DNA of 28,647 nt from IMG/VR virus record IMGVR_UViG_3300035682_000144, positions 1 to 28,647 of that record. One strand, 5' to 3'. The stretch comes from a virus. The first letter of the stretch is position 1. Every line of letters starts with the position of its first letter. The notes beneath the pieces were generated by a model. It searched no databases. It saw nothing but the letters and a program-made list of their open reading frames with translations, and was not told the DNA's origin. This document shows positions 2,389 to 6,355 of this stretch, one piece after another. The position numbers were made by a program, and so were the translations under genes.

Positions 2389-2434
2389 AGAAAAGTAAGT
2401 GCAACCCAAGAAAAATGAGTGCATTTAACAATAA

Positions 2435-2492
2435 AAAAAGTAAATCTATAACTTGACAAATTTATATAAAAAGTAAATCTATAACTTGACAA
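2435..2492 (+). repeat. Tandem 25-bp direct repeat (iteron-like), 33-bp period
   Basis: Two identical 25-base copies occupy 2435-2459 and 2468-2492, offset by 33 bases. Each starts with five A and G, contains TAAATCTATAACTTGACA, and ends in AA. The last base of copy two is the A of the ATG at 2492, so the repeat runs directly into the start codon. They could be iterons for a replication initiator, operator sites, or a duplicated leader element giving translational control. Confidence 0.6.
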
Positions 2493-2725
2493 TGAAAACG
2501 CAAGAAGATTATAACTTAATGGCAATTGATTGGGTAGAACAGTATATTGCCAATAACAAACCTTTGTTTAATGTAAAAGTGTTTGATGGGATACTCATAG
2601 AGAATACTCATTACACTCTTACCTACTGGGTATATCGGTTAAAGAATAGTAAAGGTCGTGATCAATATGGCTCTTTTGCTAAAATAAAAAAGTTTAAAGA
2701 TTGGATAAACAAACAAGCATCATGA
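2492..2725 (+). CDS. Hypothetical protein, 77 aa
   Basis: Unrecognised small basic protein with several aromatic residues (WVEQYI, YTLTYWVYRL, FKDWI). The longest frame could start at a TTG at 2486, but the ATG at 2492 is preferred and abuts the repeat that fills the leader. The middle looks like a beta-hairpin (FNVKVFDGILIENTHYTLTYW) followed by a basic loop (KNSKGRDQYG) and a C-terminal helix ending KQAS. This layout could suit a small DNA-binding or adaptor protein. The stop overlaps the next start (ATGA), so it is coupled to the replisome-organizer-like gene. Confidence 0.65.
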   Translation: MKTQEDYNLMAIDWVEQYIANNKPLFNVKVFDGILIENTHYTLTYWVYRLKNSKGRDQYGSFAKIKKFKDWINKQAS

Positions 2726-3189
2726 AAAATCAAATAGGACTTGGGGATTTTCTTCAAGAAGTTTTAAGTAAATTAAATTTGGCCATTAAGGATCAAGAAT
2801 TACTTGATAGCTTAAATGATTCGAGATTACATTGTACACCCGGACTTGAATTAATATATCCAAAAGATAAACCATTTGAGATGCCATTAATATCTAAGGT
2901 AGATGCTAATGAGATTCTTAAAGAAGTTAATGAGAAGGAAGTATTATTTGAGAAGTTTTGGAACTTATATAATAAAAAAACCAATAGAGTAAAAGTAGAG
3001 GTTAAATTTCTTAGATGTTCCATTTCAGAGATAAATAAGATTATGGAAACATTGCCTTATTACATTAAGTACACACCCGATGTTAAGTTTAGGAAAGACC
3101 CTATTACCTACCTTAACCAACGTACTTGGGAAGATGAAATATATCTACCAAGAGTTATCCAAACAAAAGAAAATCCTTTTAAATTTTAA
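2722..3189 (+). CDS. Replisome organizer / helicase-loader-like protein, 155 aa
   Basis: The C-terminal half carries a pattern I know from phage replication proteins of the DnaD-like or replisome-organizer kind: FEKFWNLYNKK (residues 77-86), a helical stretch, LPYYIKYTPD (111-120), then FRKDPITYLNQRTWEDEI (123-140). The FW..Y..KK and TYLN..W.DE blocks are the signature. Such proteins help load the replicative helicase at the origin. The N-terminal 70 residues are acidic and helical and may contact partners. I chose the ATG at 2722, which overlaps the upstream stop; an in-frame earlier start at 2701 would lie inside that gene. Position between the candidate origin and the helicase gene supports the role. 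Confidence 0.7.
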   Translation: MKNQIGLGDFLQEVLSKLNLAIKDQELLDSLNDSRLHCTPGLELIYPKDKPFEMPLISKVDANEILKEVNEKEVLFEKFWNLYNKKTNRVKVEVKFLRCSISEINKIMETLPYYIKYTPDVKFRKDPITYLNQRTWEDEIYLPRVIQTKENPFKF

Positions 3190-3191
3190 TC

Positions 3192-3818
3192 ATGGAAAAA
3201 TTTAGCTTTGATACAATTAATGATTTTGATAATCATATAATTAAAAGTATTCCTAATTATGATATTTTATTTTCATCTATTAAAAGTATTTCAGAATATT
3301 TTTATTGTGAGAATACTAATGTTTATGATTTAGGTTGTTCAACTGGTAAACTATTAAAATCTATCAACAATAATTGCAACAAAATTGGCTATGATATTGC
3401 TAATTTATTACCTAAAGAAGAAGGTTTTTACGAAGTTGACTTAAATAATAAATTTAATATTAATAATGCTTGTGTAGTCTACTCAATATTTACAATGCAA
3501 TTTTTAAATCCATCATGTAGAAAACAATATTTATTAAATATTTACAATGGTTTAAATAAAGGTGGTGCATTAATTATCTCAGAGAAGATTTATCAAAACC
3601 AAGGTAAATTTCAAGAAATTCTATCCTTTTCACATTATGATTATAAGAAAAATAATTTTACAATAGATGAAATTTTTTCTAAAGAAAAGGATTTAAGATT
3701 TATAATGAAACCCTTTATAGAAAGTGAATTAGATCAATTATTAATTGATTGTGGATTTACAACAAAAACTACATTTTGGCAAATGTTTAACTTTAAAGCT
3801 ATTATAGCAATTAAATAA
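3192..3818 (+). CDS. CmoA-like enzyme, candidate carboxy-SAM synthase
   Basis: Class I SAM-fold enzyme with specific resemblance to CmoA, which converts SAM and prephenate to carboxy-SAM (CxSAM). Matches to E. coli CmoA, aligned by eye from memory, run end to end: IPNY (20-23), the SAM-binding motif VYDLGCSTG (44-52), FTMQFLNPSCRKQYLL (100-115), IYNGLNKGGALIISEK (117-132), HYDYKK (148-153), and the ending GF..FWQMFNF (188-201). At 208 aa it is about 40 residues shorter than E. coli CmoA, mostly before and within the Rossmann core. The Arg that grips the CxSAM carboxylate in CmoA (R199) aligns with E165, though K164, K166 and R169 are close. CmoA normally works with CmoB on tRNA. No CmoB is present here, and a DNA cytosine methyltransferase follows two bases downstream. 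Inferred role: supply CxSAM to that enzyme. The gene is clearly AT-richer than its flanks. Confidence 0.72.
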   Translation: MEKFSFDTINDFDNHIIKSIPNYDILFSSIKSISEYFYCENTNVYDLGCSTGKLLKSINNNCNKIGYDIANLLPKEEGFYEVDLNNKFNINNACVVYSIFTMQFLNPSCRKQYLLNIYNGLNKGGALIISEKIYQNQGKFQEILSFSHYDYKKNNFTIDEIFSKEKDLRFIMKPFIESELDQLLIDCGFTTKTTFWQMFNFKAIIAIK

Positions 3819-3820
3819 TT

Positions 3821-4975
3821 ATGAAACCATTTTTATATAATATGGATTATGTTAATAGCCAATCCAAAAAGAAATTATTCACGGTTGTTTCAATGTTTGC
3901 AGGAGGAGGTGGCAGTTCTACTGGTTATAGATTGTCGGGTGGCAATGTATTAGCTATTAATGAATTTATAGATTCAGCACAAGAAACTTATAATGCTAAC
4001 TATCCTAATACTTATATTTTTAAAGAAGATATAAGGAAATTAAATGGAGAAATGATTTTAAATAAAATTGGATTAAAAAAAGGGGAGTTAGATATATTTG
4101 ATGGTTCTCCTCCTTGCTCATCATTTTCTACGATAGGTGCTAAAGAAAAAATGTGGGGTAAAGTAAAAAAATACTCTGATAGTGAACAAATTACAGATGA
4201 TTTATTTTTTGAATTTGCAAGAATATTAAAGGAATTGCAACCAAAAGTATTTGTATGTGAAAATGTAAAGGGGATAACAATGGGTGAATCTTCTAAATTA
4301 CTTGGATCAAGTCAATTCGATTTATTTAATGTTCAAGATAACACAATTTTAAATTCATTAATTAATGCAGGGTATAATGTTAGATACAAAGTATTAAATG
4401 CTAAAAATTACAATGTTCCACAAAGTAGAGAAAGAACAATATTTATAGGAGTAAGAAAAGATATTAAAAAAGAAATCACTTACCCTAAATCATTAACCGA
4501 TATTGTGAGTTTAGGAGATGCTTTAAATGATGAACGATGTATTTTAATGAACAAAAAAGAATTTAATGAAAATTCTCCAATGAAAGTTCTTCAAAATGTA
4601 AATTGTTTTAGAATTACAAATGAAAAAATTGATATTAATAAAAGTTATAAAATAATTAGACATGGGATAAGTGCTGGGTATGAAAATAGGTCTAATGAGG
4701 ATAAGATATTTGTTAATTCGGATACAAATGTATCTCCAACAATTTTAGCAAGTTATAAAGCATTGTCTTCTGGTTTAGTAGAATTAGAATATGAAAATGG
4801 AGAAAGGGTATTAAGAAAGTTATCTATAAATGAATTAAAAATTCTTTGTTCATTTCCAAGTGATTATAATTTATTGGGAAGTTATGCTAAACAATGGGAA
4901 AGATTAGGTAGAGCAGTTCCCCCATTAATGATGAAACATATATCTGAGCATATTTACAATACTATTTTAAAATAA
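3821..4975 (+). CDS. DNA cytosine-C5 methyltransferase, candidate carboxymethyltransferase
   Basis: All main motifs of cytosine-C5 DNA methyltransferases are present: motif I FAGGGGSSTGY (26-36), motif IV GSPPCSSF with catalytic C99, motif VI ENV (147-149), motif VIII QSRER (201-205), a target-recognition region around 225-335, and motif X QWERLGRAVPPLM (358-370). Motif X normally has Gly-Asn; here it is Gly-Arg (R364). In M.MpeI the mutation N374K, which by distance from the C-terminus appears to be this same Asn, allows use of carboxy-SAM and yields 5-carboxymethylcytosine. With the CmoA-like gene immediately upstream, I infer that this enzyme transfers a carboxymethyl group to cytosine in phage DNA. 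Plain 5-methylcytosine formation remains possible. No restriction endonuclease is adjacent, so it is not an obvious restriction-modification system. Local GC is very low. Confidence 0.85.
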   Translation: MKPFLYNMDYVNSQSKKKLFTVVSMFAGGGGSSTGYRLSGGNVLAINEFIDSAQETYNANYPNTYIFKEDIRKLNGEMILNKIGLKKGELDIFDGSPPCSSFSTIGAKEKMWGKVKKYSDSEQITDDLFFEFARILKELQPKVFVCENVKGITMGESSKLLGSSQFDLFNVQDNTILNSLINAGYNVRYKVLNAKNYNVPQSRERTIFIGVRKDIKKEITYPKSLTDIVSLGDALNDERCILMNKKEFNENSPMKVLQNVNCFRITNEKIDINKSYKIIRHGISAGYENRSNEDKIFVNSDTNVSPTILASYKALSSGLVELEYENGERVLRKLSINELKILCSFPSDYNLLGSYAKQWERLGRAVPPLMMKHISEHIYNTILK

Positions 4976-4996: not shown

Positions 4997-6355
4997 ATGA
5001 AATCAAATAATAAAGTATCATTCGCAGATTTAGATGCGGAGAAGGAAGTTATCGCACTTCTTTGCAATTACCCATCATTAACTAAAGAATGCCAAAAGGC
5101 AATCAACCCAGATGTATTTCACTTTGCCTCCACTAAGGCCATTTACTTGACTTGTATTGAATTATTTTCAGAGAGTGGTACGTTTTCCTTATCAGACCTT
5201 GTACTAAGGCTTAAAACGCAAGGAAGTAATGATTGGGCATTAATCTTGGGGGCCACAACAAGTAGAAATCCATTAAATGCAAATGAGTTACTTATTTACT
5301 TAGCCGAATTGAAAGGTAAAAGGGATTTGCTAAATTTATCAAGGGAACTAAATAATGATTTAGCAAATGGACACGATTACTTTACACTTGTGGATAAGAT
5401 AACAAACTCAATAGGCAACGACCTTATTAAGAATGATTCTAATGAAATCATTGAAATGAAGGATGCCTTAATGACTGCCGTATCCACAATAGGTGATGTA
5501 ATGACCAATGGATCACTAAGTGGTGTGCCTACGGGGTATAAGATATTAGATGATGTTACAGGTGGTTGGCTTAAAGGTAATGTGGTATTGTTCGCTGCAA
5601 GACCGGGCCAAGGTAAAACCATTTGTTTATTGGAGCATTCTCGCCATGCCTCACAAATGAATAACAAAGTTTTATTCTTATCCTTAGAGATGCCTGTAAT
5701 CTCACTTATCTACCGAATGATTAGTGGACAATTAGATGACTCTACTCCTTACTCTAAAATAAAGACTGGCAAAATAAATATTGAACAATTCACAAATATC
5801 CAAAGAGATGCCGTAGGTAAGCTTGAAAAGTTACCAATAACATGGTATGATGGTGCAAATAGGGATATTAATTATTTATCCTCTTTAATTCAAAAGATTG
5901 TTAGAGAGAAAGGAATTAACATGGTAGTCATTGATTATTTGCAATTGCTCACCGATAGTTCAATTAAGAGCAATGAAGAAACTGCGGTGGTAGGAAGTGT
6001 ATCCAAGAAGATACAACAGTTGGCTAAGAAATTAAACATTCCATTCTTATGTGCAGCACAATTAAATCGTGCATCCGAATCAAGAAATACCCATAGGCCA
6101 AGGCTTAGTGATCTTAGGTCAAGTGGGCAAATAGAGCAGGATGCCTCGGTAGTAATAGGTCTATATCGTGATGACTATTATAAGTATGAGAAAGCTAAAG
6201 AGGAAGGTAATGCTAATGTACAATTCGATAATACCATTGAGTATATATTTATGAAGAATAGAGATGGTGACACAAGAACCGCCGAGATGTTTATAGATGT
6301 TGCAACAAGTAAAATATTGGAAACTAATAACTTTGATAAAAAGTCACCATTTTAA
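4997..6355 (+). CDS. Replicative DNA helicase, DnaB-like
   Basis: Hexameric replicative helicase of the DnaB/gp41 type that unwinds the phage fork. The N-terminal DnaB domain (about residues 9-115, DLDAEKEVIALLCNYP onward) is followed by a linker and a RecA-like motor: Walker A ARPGQGKT (201-208), LSLEMP (229-233), Walker B MVVIDYLQLL (309-318), the sensor region AAQLNR (353-358), SDLRSSGQIEQDA (371-383), and the C-terminal KNRDGDTR (420-427). At 452 aa it has normal family length. It follows the methyltransferase after a 21-base AT-rich gap and has much less AT-rich coding than the two genes before it. It is the last gene of the early transcript, followed by a terminator. The replisome-organizer-like protein is the likely loader. 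Confidence 0.95.
   Translation: MKSNNKVSFADLDAEKEVIALLCNYPSLTKECQKAINPDVFHFASTKAIYLTCIELFSESGTFSLSDLVLRLKTQGSNDWALILGATTSRNPLNANELLIYLAELKGKRDLLNLSRELNNDLANGHDYFTLVDKITNSIGNDLIKNDSNEIIEMKDALMTAVSTIGDVMTNGSLSGVPTGYKILDDVTGGWLKGNVVLFAARPGQGKTICLLEHSRHASQMNNKVLFLSLEMPVISLIYRMISGQLDDSTPYSKIKTGKINIEQFTNIQRDAVGKLEKLPITWYDGANRDINYLSSLIQKIVREKGINMVVIDYLQLLTDSSIKSNEETAVVGSVSKKIQQLAKKLNIPFLCAAQLNRASESRNTHRPRLSDLRSSGQIEQDASVVIGLYRDDYYKYEKAKEEGNANVQFDNTIEYIFMKNRDGDTRTAEMFIDVATSKILETNNFDKKSPF

Follow-up and report, generated by a model that had tools for sequence, protein, structure and literature searches.

What does a virus do with a homologue of the carboxy-S-adenosylmethionine (CxSAM) synthase CmoA that ends two bases before a DNA cytosine-C5 methyltransferase? 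The initial annotation of this locus had proposed that the phage makes its own CxSAM and uses it to carboxymethylate cytosine in its DNA, and had hinted that the resulting base, 5-carboxymethylcytosine (5cxmC), had hitherto been artificial. The latter point is superseded, as natural examples have been published: CmoA and CmoX of Synechococcus phage S-B43 produce natural 5cxmC, and 5,615 CmoX candidates were found in viral sequence sets (Yang et al., Nat Commun, Dec 2025, PMC12783734). Judged from its sequence, the present cassette is a divergent member of this published kind. Genes, homology, active-site residues, adjacency, gene order and recurrence were computed in this analysis, and activities were inferred from sequence; the CmoA and CmoX reactions, the arginine contact and the resistance to HhaI were demonstrated for the S-B43 homologues (PMC12783734).

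The locus and its setting

The window, meaning the whole stretch of DNA analysed, is an entire IMG/VR virus record of 28,647 bases, which is a fragment with the TerL gene open at its right end. Early genes lie at the left on the plus strand, and the structural genes are on the minus strand. The features around the pair are as follows:

2701..3189, plus strand: replication-initiation-like protein (PHROG 270, E 1e-7), with its stop codon 2 bases 5' of cmoA
3192..3818, plus strand: cmoA, phage-type carboxy-SAM synthase homologue of 208 aa (TIGR00740, PHROG 4752, fold, identity to the S-B43 enzyme SpCmoA)
3821..4975, plus strand: cmoX, DNA cytosine-C5 carboxymethyltransferase homologue of 384 aa (PF00145, 8YF3, C99 and R364)
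4997..6355, plus strand: DnaB-like replicative helicase (PHROG 19, E 3e-76), downstream of cmoX on the same strand

Both reading frames of the pair lie exactly where the initial annotation had placed an end-to-end CmoA match and a complete C5-methyltransferase. The helicase downstream and the replication-initiation-like frame upstream place the cassette inside a replication module; the latter frame belongs to the same gene array as cmoA and stands outside the modification chemistry. Upstream of this array, two 29-base direct repeats (ATAAAAAAAGTAAATCTATAACTTGACAA; window 2431-2459 and 2464-2492), 97% identical and 33 bases apart, are a possible operator, promoter or origin element. In the cmoA-cmoX stretch (window 3001-4800) the GC content is 25-26%, most of the record being at about 34%, and this suggests recent acquisition.

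Start codons in the window follow A-rich leaders with no obvious Shine-Dalgarno motifs. The portal protein resembles that of Flavobacteriia phages by sequence, and of the 20 matching records those of Cellulophaga phages are nearest, with Flavobacterium phages represented too. Given these leaders and the portal similarity, the host is probably a member of the Bacteroidota. A Pfam search with 10 window ORFs returned only DUF3799 and weak coiled-coil matches. The record contains no detectable tRNA gene and gave zero matches to the CmoB-type family PF08003, as the initial annotation had held, and on these two absences the tRNA cmo5U pathway was rejected for the pair.

The CmoA homologue

The cmoA product was matched to TIGR00740 end to end (E 3e-32, 112 bits), at a score that does not reach the curated cut-off of 193 bits; as a control, the experimentally active SpCmoA scored 116 bits, likewise below this cut-off. 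The match to PHROG 4752 was stronger in E-value (4e-49), and identity to SpCmoA was 38.5%. An AlphaFold2 model (pLDDT 91.3) was superposed over 202-205 residues on H. influenzae YecO (1im8; Z 27.0), on E. coli CmoA (4gek; Z 26.7) and on 4iwn (Z 26.2), and the predicted fold is that of CmoA. In the tree, the protein groups with phage CmoAs within a clade of 12 CmoA rows (support 100/98), and it has the phage pattern K-E-x-x-L-R in common with SpCmoA.

Residues are given in E. coli CmoA numbering after what we take to be the sequence of that protein, the C-terminal stretch of which matches the PDB alignment. The SAM-binding and cofactor residues Y39, D62, G64, S66 and E164 are kept as Y23, D46, G48, S50 and E131, N132 is replaced by isoleucine, the Arg199 position is occupied by Glu165, and the E203 position by Arg169. 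Across the 106 phage CmoA sequences compared, Arg199 is kept in none and an arginine occupies the E203 position in all, SpCmoA included. In E. coli CmoA, Arg199 is regarded as the carboxylate anchor, forming a salt bridge to the CxSAM carboxylate (Byrne et al., PMC3663124). From the alignment we infer that in phage CmoAs the arginine at the E203 position, placed one helical turn beyond, would hold the carboxylate instead. The score below cut-off and the lost Arg199 were counted against a CmoA-CmoX cassette; the active S-B43 enzyme has both traits too.

The CmoX homologue

The cmoX product is a full-length C5-methyltransferase of PF00145 (E 1e-52) and TIGR00675. Its nearest solved relative is the S-B43 enzyme SpCmoX in complex with CxSAM (8YF3), both by sequence (E 4e-67) and by fold (Foldseek rank 1), with 39.3% protein identity to S-B43 CmoX. 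The SPPC nucleophile motif is present as S96-P97-P98-C99, with C99 aligned with SpCmoX C98, and the SpCmoX contacts to CxSAM F25, E47, F48 and D69 correspond to F26, E48, F49 and D70. R364 aligns with SpCmoX R350 and takes the cofactor-methyl position at which HhaI has Asn304. In 8YF3, R350 touches the carboxymethyl group through the CxSAM carboxylate, and the R350N variant is inactive (PMC12783734). An arginine at this position was found in 161/161 alignable CmoX sequences, and this bears out the earlier idea of using a basic residue in the last motif as a diagnostic mark.

The recognition region, at about 239-315, has diverged and its model is poor; the predicted structure is weak at residues 100-114 and 239-274. 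The GC target of SpCmoX is not transferable to the window enzyme because of this divergence. A genomic shadow of that target was sought and proved uninformative, as GC dinucleotides show no depletion in the window (observed/expected 1.10). Some phages carry tandem cmoX pairs (L017:1-1982, L076:1065-3277 and L023:2288-4635), perhaps with different target sequences.

Recurrence of the pair and proposed mechanism

Most of the viral cmoA loci that were retrieved have a CmoX-type gene adjoining cmoA or close to it, so that the pairing, which the initial annotation had wished to see checked by a genome search, is recurrent and not accidental. Scans of viral contigs returned many neighbouring cmoA/cmoX loci, in both gene orders and with or without a CmoY-like gene. 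In a Staphylococcus SPbeta-like phage (L006:5968-7667), cmoA lies directly 5' of a short HhaI-like methyltransferase that is distant from CmoX. Among 395 sampled Bacteroidota genomes, 17 had a cmoA homologue (E 1e-10) and three a close CmoX (1e-60); cmoA being this rare, a phage infecting such a host would in most cases have to bring the gene itself. The scan of genome contigs for cmoA yielded one clear cmoA-cmoX plus terminase case in a named Bacteroidota genome, that of the cultured Hymenobacter fodinae, in which overlapping cmoA and cmoX genes (L086:9971-11649) lie beside a phage terminase in a prophage-like region; the other hits were mostly cmoA alone with no nearby CmoX. On a Woesearchaeota genome contig (L085:9926-10648), a CmoA relative shares 47% identity with the protein of the window, and the fetched flanks are without CmoX.

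On the strength of 8YF3 as best relative by sequence and fold, the kept SPPC motif and R350-position arginine, the CmoA fold and cofactor residues, and the co-occurrence of CmoA and CmoX across diverse viral contigs, the window very probably holds a two-gene CmoA-CmoX DNA-modification cassette of a phage. CmoA would convert SAM and prephenate into carboxy-SAM, with prephenate presumably drawn from the host shikimate pathway. In CmoX, C99 would attack C6 of a flipped-out cytosine while R364 holds the cofactor carboxylate, and the carboxymethyl group would be moved to C5 to give 5cxmC, which would shield the phage DNA from host nucleases. The functional proposal of the initial annotation was right in substance and is already published for homologues, namely those of S-B43 (PMC12783734); it is also the best-supported reading of the present sequence.

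Bare or capped base

The amide ligase CmoY of S-B43, which resembles asparagine synthetase, joins glycine to the carboxylate as a cap, and the modification protects DNA from HhaI (PMC12783734). For the window phage, bare 5cxmC is the predicted product, as no CmoY was found in this fragmentary record: the CmoY-type family PF00733 gave zero matches in its 28.6 kb, and no other ligase was seen adjoining cmoA-cmoX. A ligase hidden elsewhere inside the window was likewise looked for and rejected, PF00733 being negative and Pfam on 10 ORFs giving none. No ligase would then cap the product, and the negative charge of 5cxmC might itself act as the nuclease shield, as the initial annotation had proposed.

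The carboxymethyl group could instead be a mere handle, with an amide ligase encoded beyond the fragment, or a host enzyme, capping the base to an amide as in S-B43. CmoY-like genes are common among CmoA-CmoX loci and occur in the clade of the window (L173 and L174, the latter on L244/L328, at the cmoA-cmoX junction, and L307, L175 and L176), and TerL runs off the end of the record. On the other side, a PF00733 match was lacking in the window and occurred in only 2/13 window-related records of 15-87 kb, a count that is too low because the search missed a CmoY-like gene in L175 that was found by phmmer, which added such genes at L175 and L307; and the cmoA-cmoX pair has no other ligase seen beside it. 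We regard this capped product as a real but minority possibility.

Prephenate genes in relatives

Chorismate mutase (CM) makes prephenate, the co-substrate of CmoA. A CM_2 search of 50 viral records returned matches in seven (L011, L016, L076, L166, L171, L173 and L174), which amount to about five independent genomes since L173/L174 and L016/L076 are pairs of close relatives. All matches are chorismate mutase or bifunctional DAHP synthase-chorismate mutase (DAHPS-CM) genes that share the strand of cmoA and cmoX and lie at their junction:

L011:5832-6092, chorismate mutase of 86 aa by Pfam
L166:8637-8903, chorismate mutase
L016:632-1582, DAHP synthase plus chorismate mutase of 316 aa by Pfam
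L171:3833-4822, DAHPS-CM
L173:3287-4231, DAHPS-CM
L076:118-1068, DAHP synthase plus chorismate mutase of 316 aa by Pfam
L244/L328 (contig of L174), chorismate mutase or DAHPS-CM

Five of the seven records have cmoA upstream of the gene and, on its downstream side, either cmoX or CmoY followed by cmoX, all in one orientation; in L174 this order continues across the two contig ends, and the L076 contig starts just upstream of the CM gene. A CmoY-like ligase follows the chorismate mutase gene in two of the seven, L173 and L174. With numbering after what we take to be the E. coli sequence, all seven chorismate mutases retain the catalytic residues R11, R28, K39, S84 and Q88, and all except that of L011 also retain R51. 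A junctional chorismate mutase with kept catalytic residues ties the cmoA-cmoX locus to prephenate chemistry. The phage DAHPS-CM proteins form one clade (100/100) within the Bacteroidota DAHPS-CM family, with a long L173 branch. On the CmoA tree, the presence of CM requires several gains or losses, at least three of which are forced by well-supported branches. Distant DAHP synthases on other viral contigs (L329-L340) were left uncounted, as their fetched flanks held no cmoA. In the window, cmoA and cmoX are not separated by a chorismate mutase gene, and searches of its own record and family scans found no prephenate gene.

We consider it likely that the phage clade of the window recruited its own prephenate supply (CM, or a DAHPS-CM acquired from the Bacteroidota-type family) between cmoA and cmoX for DNA hypermodification, so that a phage would encode both the shikimate entry enzyme and the prephenate-making step, with the window phage as a member without the gene, and that phage CmoAs moved the carboxylate-binding arginine by one helical turn, Arg199 being lost and the E203-position arginine invariant. 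In several relatives, a phage chorismate mutase, with or without DAHP synthase, would top up prephenate. The prephenate supply for CmoA is called open in the S-B43 study, the main text of which mentions neither chorismate nor DAHP (PMC12783734), and the junctional placement looks new against the open-access PMC literature, an unseen preprint being possible. It is this clade-level feature that carries most of the interest of the locus.

Alternatively, these genes might serve metabolism in general, as auxiliary genes by which the phage increases the supply of aromatic amino acids, and have no role in DNA modification. A virome study of rumen viruses reported chorismate mutase among amino acid auxiliary genes and listed it separately from asparagine synthase and DNMT1-type genes, likewise given as auxiliary (PMC10465536); that these belong to one cmoA-cmoX-type locus is a lead only. 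Such a general role is improbable given the exclusively junctional, same-strand placement of the CM_2 matches, the gene order cmoA, DAHPS-CM, CmoY-like and cmoX in L173, and the absence of CM matches from 49 other phage or viral records searched, the sole match of that search being a host-type Hymenobacter gene.

Least probable is the reading in which CmoX methylates cytosine at C5 with SAM in the ordinary way and CmoA merely adjoins it, with an unrelated task such as modifying tRNA or depleting SAM: membership of PF00145 and the abundance of orphan methyltransferases in phages (711 records match at all) would fit, but R364 in place of HhaI Asn304 and 8YF3 as nearest relative disfavour a 5-methylcytosine enzyme, wild-type SpCmoX accepted CxSAM and nothing else (PMC12783734), the cmoA-cmoX pairing recurs with chorismate mutase inserted in relatives, and the window lacks the tRNA gene and CmoB of a tRNA pathway.

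Significance

Read as a CmoA-CmoX cassette, the pair extends a modification whose natural occurrence was first demonstrated in late 2025 by a divergent member that probably comes from a Bacteroidota phage, and the lack of a detected CmoY beside the pair makes this phage a candidate for keeping bare 5cxmC. The CM and DAHPS-CM genes of the relatives bear on the source of prephenate that the S-B43 study left open; they suggest that chorismate mutase and asparagine synthase genes of phages, where listed as auxiliary genes for amino acids, can be part of a DNA-hypermodification pathway instead, and, at the junction, they provide a genomic marker for finding further such systems. Hymenobacter fodinae offers a cultured host in which 5cxmC could be sought.

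Comparison with known systems

The bacterial CmoA-CmoB pathway to cmo5U in tRNA shares the CmoA fold and most cofactor residues with the window, which differs in having neither CmoB nor a tRNA gene, in its TIGR00740 score below cut-off, in Glu165 for Arg199 and in the arginine at the E203 position. Engineered M.MpeI N374K (described in PMC12783734) resembles the window CmoX in that a basic residue beside the cofactor methyl permits the use of CxSAM; it has a CpG target and takes CxSAM from the CmoA of the cell, whereas the window pair is natural and brings its own CmoA. The bifunctional DAHPS-CM of Bacteroidota and the gene of the relatives are alike in DAHPS-then-CM domain order, catalytic residues and position within the same family tree, but the phage proteins are 314-329 aa long against about 360 in the sampled Bacteroidota hosts, form their own clade and are encoded between cmoA and cmoX. 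The closest parallel is the CmoA-CmoX-CmoY system of S-B43, which likewise combines a CmoA homologue with an adjacent C5-transferase bearing SPPC and the CxSAM-reading arginine in a replication neighbourhood. In the window, which is a fragment without detected CmoY and appears to be from a Bacteroidota-type phage, cmoA directly precedes cmoX and its product has 208 aa against 231 in S-B43; and whereas a search of S-B43 detected neither chorismate mutase nor DAHPS-CM, relatives of the window phage carry such genes.
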